Assembly: GCA_022823185.1 (NCBI GenBank)
Contig: JAJDXQ010000015.1
Location: 124,001-188,000 of the forward strand
Source of the DNA: Caldilineaceae bacterium
Lineage (GTDB): Bacteria > Chloroflexota > Anaerolineae > Caldilineales > Caldilineaceae
Direction: 5' to 3'
DNA: 64,000 nucleotides
Below the pieces are notes generated by a model. The model saw only the letters and a list, made by a program, of their open reading frames with translations, did no database searches and was not told the origin of the DNA. Positions 3,848 to 40,654 of this stretch are shown piece after piece. Within the stretch, counting starts at the first letter, position 1; the number at the start of each line of letters is the position of its first letter. The translations under genes and the position numbers were made by a program.

Positions 3848-4822
3848 ATGCAATCTTCACCTGCTCAATCTACACCCGCAGCGCAGACCGAACGAGGTCT
3901 GCGCTTTTTCCAACGCCTCAGCTTCGAAGAGACACTTTTTGGCTGGCTGTTTATCGTGCCAGCTGTGTTGGGGCTGCTGTTTTTCCGCCTCGGCCCGGTA
4001 TTCGCCAGCTTCTATCTGAGCTTCACGAAATACGAAATCATCACCGCGCCCCAGTGGATCGGGTTCGCCAACTACACCAAACTGATCAAGGATGCTCTGT
4101 GGCTGCGTTCCATTGAAGTGACCTTGTGGTATGTAGTTCTCTTTGTGCCTCTGTCCCTCACATTTGCCTACGCCGTTGCCCTGCTGATGAGCCGCAATGT
4201 GCGGGGGATCACAACCTATCGCACGCTCTGGTATTTGCCGTCCGTGGTGCCCGTGGTCGCCAGCGCGACCATCTGGCGATGGGGCCTGAATCCGGAGTTC
4301 GGGCCGATCAACTATCCTCTCAAGGTGCTGGGACTGCCCGCGCCCCGTTGGCTGACCGATCCGGATTGGATCGTGCCATCCATTGTCTTTATCGGTCTGT
4401 GGGGGCTCGGCAATTCTGTGCTCATTTTTCTGGCTTCGATTGTCAGTGTGCCCCGCACATTCTACGAAGCCGCGGAAGTGGATGGCGCCAACGGCTTGGC
4501 CAGATTCCGTCATGTGACCTTGCCCCTCACCTCTTCGATTATCTTCTACCAGTTGATCGTGACTGTCATAAACAGCTTTCAGGTCTTCGGTGTGGCCTAT
4601 GTCCTCTTTGTATCCAATCCGTCTGCTTCCTCTGCCGGACCGAACAACGCCGCGCTCTTTTATGTGCTGTACATGTTTCGTAACGCCTTCGGATACTTTC
4701 GCAACGGCTACGCATCAGCAATGGCCTGGATTCTCTTCCTCGTGGTCATGCTGCTGACGATTTTTCTTTTCTACAGCCAGCGGCGTTGGGTCTATTACGA
4801 AACAGAAGGGGGCGGCTCGTGA
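3848..4822 (+). CDS. Sugar ABC transporter permease (MalF/UgpA type)
   Basis: A 324-residue inner-membrane permease with about six hydrophobic helices. The cytoplasmic EAA loop is seen as EAAEVDGANGLARF (about 208-221) followed by HVTLP, the site that docks the ATPase. It starts one base after the binding-protein stop and ends in a four-base GTGA overlap with the next permease, so translation is probably coupled. No ATP-binding gene is present in this operon, as is common for CUT1 systems that share an MsmX/UgpC-like ATPase encoded elsewhere. Confidence 0.93.
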   Translation: MQSSPAQSTPAAQTERGLRFFQRLSFEETLFGWLFIVPAVLGLLFFRLGPVFASFYLSFTKYEIITAPQWIGFANYTKLIKDALWLRSIEVTLWYVVLFVPLSLTFAYAVALLMSRNVRGITTYRTLWYLPSVVPVVASATIWRWGLNPEFGPINYPLKVLGLPAPRWLTDPDWIVPSIVFIGLWGLGNSVLIFLASIVSVPRTFYEAAEVDGANGLARFRHVTLPLTSSIIFYQLIVTVINSFQVFGVAYVLFVSNPSASSAGPNNAALFYVLYMFRNAFGYFRNGYASAMAWILFLVVMLLTIFLFYSQRRWVYYETEGGGS

Positions 4823-38054: not shown

Positions 38055-38083
38055 TTGACCTCAAAGGTCCTTTGTGCTATCGT
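38055..38083 (+). promoter_or_regulatory. Promoter for the split tRNA-Arg gene
   Basis: TTGACC (38055-38060), a 17-base spacer and TATCGT (38078-38083) with TG upstream. It ends 23 bases before the tRNA 5' end. The -10 block equals that of the rex promoter. Confidence 0.7.
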
Positions 38084-38393
38084 CAAGAAGGTGCGCAGTG
38101 CTTCCTGCCCCCGTAGCTCAGAGGATAGAGCAGAGGTTTCCTAAACGTGCGCCATGTAACGGCGTGACACCATGTCCGAAAGGTCGGACACAAGTACAGG
38201 AGCAATTGTAGGTCAACTGCCCAACCGGACTCCGAAAGGAGGTAAGGGAAAATAGCATGGCAGTAAAGGCGGAATGCAGAATTGCCATGAATTTCAGCAG
38301 GTTCGCCAAGACCTGCGCCCTAAGATTAAGACTAAACTGTTTGAATCTCAGATTCCACTAAGCCTAAAAAACCAGCTTGCGGGAAGCATGGCT

Positions 38394-38436
38394 GAAACCC
38401 GCATCCCCAAGTTCAAGCTCAGGGTTTAGGAGCTTG
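38394..38436 (+). other. Exon-recognition region of the intron (candidate EBS2 and EBS1 loops)
   Basis: CAAGCTC (38414-38420) and GAGCTTG (38430-38436) form a perfect 7-bp hairpin. Its 9-base loop ends in GTTTAG (38424-38429), complementary to the 3' end of exon 1. Thirty bases upstream, GAAACC (38394-38399) complements the adjacent GGTTTC of exon 1. The order EBS2 then EBS1 in domain I is the expected one. Confidence 0.75.
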
Positions 38437-38657
38437 ATGTCCTGACAACGGGGATAGACCTGCAAATCCAGCAGGGCAAGGAATCGAACGAGAAATCTAA
38501 GGGGCGCCGGAGGTGTCACGAGCGGAACATGGGAAAGCCTAACAGCCGAAAGGCTTATGGCTTCGGAGTTCCCATAGTAGTCAGAGAGTGGGAAAACCAC
38601 TTACAAGGCGAAGGGGAACAGGTGTGATTCGACGATGAGAAAAGCAAGGTATGCGAA

Positions 38658-40484
38658 ATGCAGAATTCCGAAGCTGTACTCAGAGTCTATAGCGAAAGAG
38701 GGAAGGAGGGAAAACCCCTAAATCGACTGTACCGACAGCTTTTCAATCCGGAATTGTACTGGGAAGCGTACAACAGTATCTACGCCAACCTTGGCGCAAG
38801 AACCAATGGCGCGAGCGAAGATACACTCGATGGCATGTCGAAGAAACGCATAGACAATATCATTGAGAAAATAAAACGGGAAACCTATAGATGGAATCCG
38901 GTACGTAGAACATACACTCCAAAAACCGATGGCAGGCGGAGGCCACTGGGAGTCCCATCAGGGGACGATAAGCTACTGCAAGCCACGATGAAAATGCTGC
39001 TGGAAGCCTACTACGAGCCAACGTTCAGCGATCGAAGTCACGGATTCAGGCCGAAAAGAGGTTGCCACACCGCCCTGATCCAGATCAGCAAAATGCACAC
39101 GGGCGTAAACTGGTTCATTGAAGGCGATATCAAAGGTTGCTTCGACAACATTGACCACGAATCCCTGCTGGGAATCCTGGGAAACAGGATCGAAGACGGC
39201 AGAATGCTGAGGCTCATCAGCAACCTGCTGAACGCGGGATATTTGGAAGACTGGGCTTACAATGAAACGCCAAGCGGAACACCGCAAGGTGGAATCATCA
39301 GCCCGCTACTCACCAACATCTATATGGATGTACTGGACAAATGGGTAGAAAATGAGCTTCTCCCCCGCTACAACCGCAGTCGAAAAAGTCGGGGAAACGG
39401 AAAGCTGTGTGGGCGAAGATTAAACCCCGAATACACAAAATTGACCAGGCAAATCACAGTTTCTGAGAAAAACGGGGACATAATCAGCGCCAAATCGCTC
39501 CGCAAAATGAGAAACGAAATTCCATCCGGAGACCCAACCGACGACGGGTATCGAAAGCTGGAATACATCAGATATGCGGACGACTTCCTGTTGAGCTTCG
39601 CAGGCCCAAAAAGCGAGGCAAGGGAAATTAGAGAGGAAATCAGAAAGTTTCTGCAAGACAGGCTGAAGCTGGAACTGTCCGAGGAAAAGACCCTGATAAC
39701 CCACGCCAAGACACAGAGCGCCAGATTCTTGGGATATGATCTGAGAGTTATGCACTCAAGCCAAATCCGAACAATCAACGGAAAAATGTGGCTTGGAATC
39801 CCGCCAGAAGTAATCAGGAAGAACATGAGAAAGTACATGGTGGACGGAAAGCCGGGAACAAGAACATACCTGGAAGAGAACTCCGATTACGCCATCATAA
39901 CAACCTATCAAGTGGAATATGTAGGGTTGGTTCAGTACTACATCATGGCGCACAACTTGCGAAAACTGACACGGGTAAACTGGGCGGTCAGGACATCCTT
40001 GCTGAAAACACTGGCAAGCAAGCACAAAAGTTCCGTCACAAAGATGGCGCAAAAGTACGCGGCCACCTTAAAGAAGAATGGCCGCAACTACAAAGTGCTT
40101 GAAGTCACTGTAGAAAGAACAGGCAAGAAACCGCTCATTGCACGATACGGGGCAACCCCTCTAACTCGAAACCCGAATCCCGCAGAAATCAAGGACACGA
40201 CGCCAACTGTCTACGGAAGGCGAACAGATTTGATCGATAGAATCAAATCGGATGTGTGCGAGATGTGCGGGGAAAATGGGCAGACGGAAGTTCACCATGT
40301 GAGAAAGCTGAAAGACCTGACAAGGCCGGGCAGAAAACCAAAGCCCGCGTGGGTCAAGAGGATGGCGGCGTTGAGACGCAAAACATTGGTAACGTGCAAA
40401 ACGTGCCACAGAGCTATCCACAATGGAGAACACCGTCCAGAATGGGACGCTAACACGATCGCACTGGAGAGCCGAATGCTATGA
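38658..40484 (+). CDS. Group II intron reverse transcriptase/maturase with HNH endonuclease
   Basis: 608 residues. The reverse transcriptase fingers and palm cover about 50-345, with FIEGDIKGCFDNIDH (153-167) and the catalytic YADD (306-309). The maturase (X) domain is about 375-490. A C-terminal HNH domain has zinc Cys534/Cys537 and Cys580/Cys583, and HH at 546-547. All three activities for splicing and target-primed retrohoming seem intact. The ATG at 38658 is used; only a weak AAGG precedes it. The last codons and the TGA (40482-40484) lie inside domain V. It is similar to maturases of bacterial and chloroplast-like introns; the exact class needs a tree. Confidence 0.95.
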   Translation: MQNSEAVLRVYSERGKEGKPLNRLYRQLFNPELYWEAYNSIYANLGARTNGASEDTLDGMSKKRIDNIIEKIKRETYRWNPVRRTYTPKTDGRRRPLGVPSGDDKLLQATMKMLLEAYYEPTFSDRSHGFRPKRGCHTALIQISKMHTGVNWFIEGDIKGCFDNIDHESLLGILGNRIEDGRMLRLISNLLNAGYLEDWAYNETPSGTPQGGIISPLLTNIYMDVLDKWVENELLPRYNRSRKSRGNGKLCGRRLNPEYTKLTRQITVSEKNGDIISAKSLRKMRNEIPSGDPTDDGYRKLEYIRYADDFLLSFAGPKSEAREIREEIRKFLQDRLKLELSEEKTLITHAKTQSARFLGYDLRVMHSSQIRTINGKMWLGIPPEVIRKNMRKYMVDGKPGTRTYLEENSDYAIITTYQVEYVGLVQYYIMAHNLRKLTRVNWAVRTSLLKTLASKHKSSVTKMAQKYAATLKKNGRNYKVLEVTVERTGKKPLIARYGATPLTRNPNPAEIKDTTPTVYGRRTDLIDRIKSDVCEMCGENGQTEVHHVRKLKDLTRPGRKPKPAWVKRMAALRRKTLVTCKTCHRAIHNGEHRPEWDANTIALESRML

Positions 40485-40556
40485 AAGTAGCACGTTCGGT
40501 TCGGAGGGGGATTGTAGGAAAAGTGCTTTCAGCAACTCGTCTGCAATCTACCCTAC
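40469..40556 (+). ncRNA. Intron domains V and VI (catalytic core and branch point)
   Basis: Domain V (40469-40502, 34 nt) runs from GAGCCGAATGC through a GAAA tetraloop to GCACGTTCGGTTC. It has the AGC triad and the two-base bulge of group II introns. Domain VI (40503-40556) pairs GGGATTG with CAAT...CCC, leaving the A at 40550 bulged. It is seven bases from the 3' splice site, where the branch point is expected. Confidence 0.92.
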
Positions 40557-40624
40557 CTTTGGCCGTAGGTTCGACTCCTACCGGGGGCGCTCTTCTTCCC
40601 CACAATTCAGAGGCAATTTGGTAA

Positions 40625-40654
40625 CGAAAAAGAGAGTCGCGTCCGCGACTCTCT
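40625..40654 (-). terminator. Strong intrinsic terminator, mainly for the minus-strand M81 gene
   Basis: AGAGAGTCGC (40631-40640) and GCGACTCTCT (40645-40654) form a perfect 10-bp stem with loop GTCC. On the minus strand TTTTTCGTT follows. It may also help end the tRNA transcript on the plus strand, though no T-run is present there. Confidence 0.8.

Follow-up and report, generated by a model that had tools for sequence, protein, structure and literature searches.

A group II intron in the anticodon arm of the only tRNA-Arg(CCU) gene found in a Caldilineaceae genome, and comparable introns in tRNA genes of Ktedonobacteria

How might a bacterium obtain its tRNA-Arg(CCU), if the only gene found for it is interrupted by more than 2 kb of other sequence? 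The question is raised by a 64,000-nt stretch of DNA (the window) from a Caldilineaceae genome, in which an earlier note, made from the letters alone, had recognised two tRNA halves that join at 38146/40557 into a 73-nt tRNA. This was borne out by ARAGORN: in the joined exons (38107–38146, tRNA positions 1–40, and 40557–40589, positions 41–73; these and all the features of the locus given below are on the forward strand), it called one 73-nt tRNA-Arg(cct) with a full cloverleaf, so that the tRNA-finder check that the note had proposed was passed with a good tRNA-Arg(CCU), and it called no tRNA in the unspliced window. The 5′ exon ends at tRNA position 40, as the note had it, and the break at 40/41 falls in the 3′ strand of the anticodon stem. 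ARAGORN still calls tRNA-Arg(cct) when the join is moved by −4 to +6 bases, so the junction is set by the intron ends rather than by the tRNA call. The observation itself is real and well delimited.

Upstream of the tRNA is a promoter-like TTGACC-17-TATCGT (38055–38083), picked out by a promoter scan and by alignment with sister loci. As the scan gave two such sites in 3 kb against 1.2 expected, this evidence is weak taken alone; TTTGACC and TGCTATCGT do not vary between the window and the 12 sister loci (of 15) included in the alignment. Downstream, a hairpin noticed by eye in the alignment (40631–40654) is a possible terminator lacking a T run, and was not among the features that the same scan reported.

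The 2,410-nt insert (38147–40556) reads GTGCGCC...CTACCCTAC, in which GTGCG...AC agrees with the GUGYG start and AY end of group II introns, and it shares its ends with relatives in other genes. Its last part (40467–40556) matches RF00029 at 68.2 bits (cut-off 40, E 2.6e-11). Of 4,227 Rfam families, no other exceeded its cut-off in the window, the group I core included; with 150 of 355 candidates scored, this was also the one RF00029 match seen in the genome. The same stretch folds with z = −6.0 (none of 200 shuffles was as good) into a 14-pair domain V (40469–40502) and a domain VI (40505–40554), whose bulged A40550, seven nt from the 3′ end (−7), is the predicted branch point. When 11 introns were compared, 22 of the 33 consensus pairs of domains V and VI had both bases changed with pairing preserved in one sequence or more; broken pairs also occur among these introns, mostly in domain VI. 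Of the proposed covariance-model check, then, the part concerning domains V and VI stood, while domain I was assessed by comparison, its homology being judged by profile across introns, a hairpin fold and exon pairing.

The exon pairing is complete. EBS1 (GTTTAG, 38424–38429), in the 9-nt loop of an 8-bp hairpin, pairs at 6/6 positions with IBS1 (CTAAAC, 38141–38146); the delta G immediately before it (38423) pairs with C40557, where the 3′ exon starts; and EBS2 (AAACC, 38369–38373) pairs at 5/5 positions with IBS2 (GGTTT, 38135–38139; exon positions −12 to −8). In these stretches, which were chosen from the alignment beforehand, such fits are expected by chance for 0.4% of random hexamers and 1.3% of random pentamers. 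Another AAACC was considered as EBS2 and dropped, its stretch being conserved whatever the target; the variable 38369–38373 was preferred.

The intron contains an intact 608-aa ORF (38658–40484), identified through Pfam and PDB comparisons as a reverse transcriptase (RVT_1) with maturase domain X (Intron_maturas2) and an AI2M-like HNH endonuclease, and its end overlaps domain V by 18 nt (40467–40484). Thus, the expectation of group II ends, domains V and VI and a full-length RT/maturase/HNH gene was upheld in all its parts. In the PDB, its best relative is LtrA (E 2.2e-125, aligned over query residues 7–587), and the NCBIfam model group_II_RT_mat scores 274 bits, below its curated cut-off of 300. 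AGG makes up 13 of the 59 Arg codons of the protein (22%), against 89 of 1,174 (7.6%) in the other long ORFs of the window. The idea of a feedback loop between the protein and its own tRNA was dropped, as the share is 13–15% in three relatives in ssb genes and 26% in another relative.

We therefore think it very probable that a complete group II intron, with its own RT/maturase, splits the sole tRNA-Arg(CCU) gene found in this genome, and would remove itself with the help of its protein to leave a 73-nt tRNA; judged by its sequence, the intron is likely to be able to splice. In Ll.LtrB of Lactococcus lactis, the intron that encodes LtrA, the target is recognised through EBS1, EBS2 and delta, and splicing yields a lariat. 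The window intron would have arrived by retrohoming, through reverse splicing into anticodon-arm DNA read by its EBS sequences. The pre-tRNA would still be transcribed from the old promoter and would double as the message for the intron protein; branching at A40550 would then join nucleotide 40 to nucleotide 41, with RNase P and CCA addition left to complete the tRNA.

Support for this reading comes from 16 further genomes of the genus. The CCU anticodon arm was matched exactly once in 15 of them (the exception, G003, is 81% complete and had no match), and all 15 matches represent the same locus, with the tRNA uninterrupted, flanks that align across the junction and a tRNA-Arg(cct) call by ARAGORN. 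The predicted spliced product is identical over its 73 nt to the tRNA of 13 of these 15 sisters, G008 and G013 differing in the variable loop. In G008 the flanks are about 92% identical to those of the window and the intron is absent, so the insertion is recent, or has been lost from G008. In the window's own draft genome (46 contigs, 99.29% complete), there were 46 tRNA hits, to 45 of which ARAGORN assigned a three-base anticodon, in no case CCT, so that the search for a second, unsplit tRNA-Arg(CCU) found none in the draft. To the remaining hit, a tRNA-like gene with a short anticodon loop (L044, G000 C23:67523-67595), ARAGORN gives only CG.

Might the split gene nevertheless be dead or dying, invaded recently by an intron that splices poorly, with AGG read by tRNA-Arg(UCU)? 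The Arg tRNAs found in this genome have TCT, CCG, TCG and GCG, and tRNA-Arg(UCU) may read AGG by wobble. The cell therefore need not depend on this splicing, and selection on it may be weak. Of the claim that the cell must splice to read AGG with this tRNA if the copy is unique, the uniqueness has stood, as far as the draft goes, and the necessity may not hold. The low frequency of AGG outside the intron also suits a dying gene, as does the lack of an intron in the nearest sister, and, if the insertion is recent, intact halves say little about use. We nonetheless regard this explanation as improbable: both halves are the same as in 13 of 15 sisters, the upstream element has been kept, and the ribozyme core, EBS pairing and protein are all intact. 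In addition, similar introns in Ktedonobacteria interrupt a tRNA-Trp gene of which no unsplit copy was found (see below), arguing that such splicing can work. It seems less probable still that an unsplit tRNA-Arg(CCU) lies on DNA missing from the draft, making the split copy dispensable. The 46 contigs, though 99.29% complete, also failed to yield a tRNA-Ile(GAT), so the draft does miss tRNA genes; yet each of the 15 sisters with a match has exactly one, at the same locus. That unrelated sequence was joined into the tRNA gene during assembly of this draft is very hard to believe, when the flanks agree with the sisters both before and after the junction and exactly this target is fitted by EBS1, EBS2 and delta of the intron.

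The reading of a self-removing group II intron in a tRNA gene invites comparison with known systems. The plastid trnK intron breaks its tRNA at 37/38, compared with 40/41 in the window. Like the window intron, it belongs to group II, carries a maturase and lies within a tRNA gene, but MatK has lost most RT motifs (PMC4424553), whereas the RT, X and HNH domains of the window protein are intact; no degenerate RT of that kind was found here, the RT domain being complete against LtrA. Ll.LtrB shares with the window intron the GUGCG start and a protein alignable over nearly its full length, but its host is the relaxase gene of a conjugative plasmid (PMC6003770), in contrast to a chromosomal tRNA gene. 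The group I introns of bacterial tRNA genes self-splice, as is predicted for the window intron, and likewise lie near the anticodon, and they are recorded from cyanobacteria and alpha- and beta-proteobacteria, with putative examples in giant sulfur bacteria (PMC4033280, PMC4853749); they differ in their group I ribozyme and in interrupting mostly 37/38, while the window has a ribozyme of group II, together with an RT. Housekeeping genes that the cell needs do harbour group II introns in bacteria (recA of Geobacillus, and others), and cyanobacteria and the CL and ML lineages are mentioned in this connection in a review (PMC4424553); those introns sit in protein genes, as do some relatives described below, while the window's host gene specifies a structural RNA without a reading frame.

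We found no report of a group II intron in a bacterial tRNA gene in the open-licence literature, among the matches listed, which is not proof of absence. The 2001 study of Vogel and Hess reportedly dealt with plastids. It is cited for one sentence, in the available part of a review, that puts introns of groups I and II at 37/38; elsewhere in that part bacterial tRNA introns are group I, as is the self-splicing row of its table (PMC4033280). The excerpts of PMC4390854 mention group I and group II self-splicing introns in bacteria and name no group II tRNA case, and those of PMC4424553 give plastid trnK as their tRNA case. Thirty-four RT genes are recorded for Ktedonobacter racemifer, with no tRNA case in the part available (PMC3236041), and the accessible parts of PMC8919778, PMC12350094 and PMC3984707 likewise contain no group II tRNA case.

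Within the genus, relatives of the window intron occur in ssb genes (L112, L114, L115, L117 and L137) and in a MazG gene (L116). Removal of the intron restored the SSB frame of L112 (PF00436, 117 bits) and the MazG frame of L116 (PF03819, 45 bits); Pfam was run on these two loci, and the other ssb cases were called by having the same flank sequence. (L112, L114 and L117 share their matches with L048, L049 and L061.) The relatives start GTGCGC and most end CTACCCTAC or CTACCCGAC, L136 ending CCTACCCACT. Their EBS sites tend to track the target, as with TCCGG/CCGGA in two ssb introns and GACTAC/GTAGTC in L136. With G-U pairs scored as half, the EBS1 fit (of 6) is 4.0 in G011, 4.5 in one G001 copy, 5 in G014, G003 and G005, 5.5 in G013 and the other G001 copy, and 6 in L136, and the EBS2 fit (of 5) is 4 in G013, G011 and G005, 4.5 in one G001 copy and L136, and 5 in G014, G003 and the other G001 copy; in a cross table of these fits a foreign exon sometimes equals or beats the intron's own. 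Two similar intron copies (L117 and L137) lie 3.6 kb apart on contig C205 of G001, in two ssb-like genes that differ in sequence, and the tblastn pieces of both contain stops. None of the relatives that could be tried was found to split another tRNA: 24 of 63 loci were given to a tRNA-join test, of which three lacked a domain V motif and two had no start within reach, leaving 19, and a slightly different version of the script recovered the window's own case.

Are there comparable cases farther afield? A pattern combining the 3′ strand of domain V with a T-arm behind it was run on 400 Chloroflexota genomes; 61 had a match, most of the rows being, by eye, intact tRNAs or chance, and 10 regions were followed up. 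In the class to which G109 belongs, a looser pattern had matches in 13 of 47 genomes, and in its family a tRNA-Trp pattern had matches in 23 of 29. The first pattern misses cases, the intron of G327 having come from the tRNA-Trp pattern alone. We place the family in the class Ktedonobacteria, since it includes Ktedonosporobacter rubrisoli (contig 1 of G407 agreed with NZ_CP035758.1 at 1,000 of 1,000 compared bases). Among the candidates, L210 was rejected as a tmRNA and L214 as containing no tRNA. A scan of 292 genomes centred on G455 (Okeania) had matches in seven and no clear case, the one locus followed (L305) being rejected for want of a group II match, and a further eight genomes yielded no split tRNA.

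In the Ktedonobacteria family, tRNA-Trp(CCA) is split at 38/39 by an intron of 575–615 nt, too short to hold an RT gene, in six genomes of one genus (g99; L203–L208), the intron of one of them (G118) starting GCGCGCC. In another genus, G327 also has a split tRNA-Trp, with a C preceding the intron start GAGCGCC. A CAU tRNA (called Met by ARAGORN) is split cleanly at 38/39 by a 544-nt intron in G306; in the split CAU tRNAs of G175, G239 and G268 the exon is separated from the start of the intron by odd bases, numbering from a few to about eight. Extra or changed bases where exon and intron start meet are seen at L201, L291, L299 and L285 (CAU introns and one Trp intron); similar 5′ insertions are known from organellar rRNA introns, where they accompany loss of branching. 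In G183, tRNA-Arg(CCU) is split at 38/39 by a 2,639-nt intron with a 620-aa ORF, whose product is 33% identical to the window protein, and in G320 domains V and VI adjoin a tRNA 3′ half at the end of a contig. RF00029 was above cut-off at L201, L202, L203, L205, L207, L209, L285, L291, L299 and L300 (L204, L206 and L208 were left out of the Rfam runs).

These introns appear to read the anticodon itself, as the IBS1 that they would recognise consists of the anticodon with U33 before it and A37 and A38 after it. The Trp introns have TTTGGA as EBS1 and the G183 Arg intron has TTAGGA, with 6/6 pairs to IBS1; as EBS2, with 5/5 pairs, all six g99 introns have ACCGC and that of G183 has ACCGA. The introns of G306 and G175 contain TTATGA, complementary to TCATAA; the exon end of G175 as assembled has no EBS1 fit, because of its extra bases. 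G327 has no full-fit EBS2 (best 4.5), and the delta pairing is absent from the g99 introns.

The case of g99 is stronger than that of the window, since no alternative gene was found for tRNA-Trp. Each of the six genomes has two pattern matches, of which one is the split tRNA-Trp and the other has CCGG at the anticodon (tRNA-Arg(CCG) in G127), and none has an intact tRNA-Trp by the tRNA-Trp pattern. For G127, a single contig of 5.6 Mb (94% complete), typing covered every one of the 46 tRNA hits and gave no CCA. No other standard tRNA is known to read UGG. The exons are identical in five of the six loci and 97.3% identical to those of G191, compared with 88–98% for the introns and 71–94% for the 300-base flanks, as would be expected if selection acted on the spliced tRNA. 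It is likely, to judge from these sequences, that protein synthesis in g99 depends on group II splicing of tRNA-Trp. The G183 protein, used as query, had no match at E 1e-3 in the six g99 genomes (5 of 12 genomes searched had one). The window intron and that of G183 encode an intact mobility protein, and others have none within the intron; these would represent bacterial stages between a selfish retroelement and a host-dependent intron.

How often were tRNA genes entered? In a tree of 28 domain I sequences, 10 Ktedonobacteria tRNA introns fall on one side of a 100/100 branch, and the window intron groups with the ssb, MazG and L136 introns (99/98). The tRNA introns in it came from the tRNA pattern, just three other Ktedonobacteria introns were included, the root is at the midpoint, and the program gave a long-branch warning that covered the window's branch. 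Allowing for these weak points, the tree suggests entry at least twice, at 40/41 and at 38/39. On balance, we consider it probable that tRNA genes are a regular home of group II introns in bacteria; that one Ktedonobacteria clade has specialised on anticodon loops, its EBS1 being in effect an anti-anticodon, and has spread to tRNA-Trp, a CAU tRNA and tRNA-Arg(CCU); that in one genus it occupies the sole tRNA-Trp gene, so that the reading of UGG, and with it most protein synthesis, depends on a group II ribozyme; that the window represents a second, independent invasion; and that one relative carries an intact copy of the tRNA that it interrupts. Bacteria would then resemble plastids in having group II introns in apparently single-copy tRNA genes, and, since tRNA finders miss such split genes, a tRNA that is apparently missing from a genome may be concealed by an intron.

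The relative with the intact copy is the intron of G183, which contains a complete tRNA-Arg(CCU) at intron nt 503–575 (L209 reverse-complement 4474–4546), ahead of the protein ORF that starts at intron nt 659. This cargo tRNA differs in sequence from the split tRNA-Arg(CCU) gene, and may stand in for the gene that its intron interrupts.
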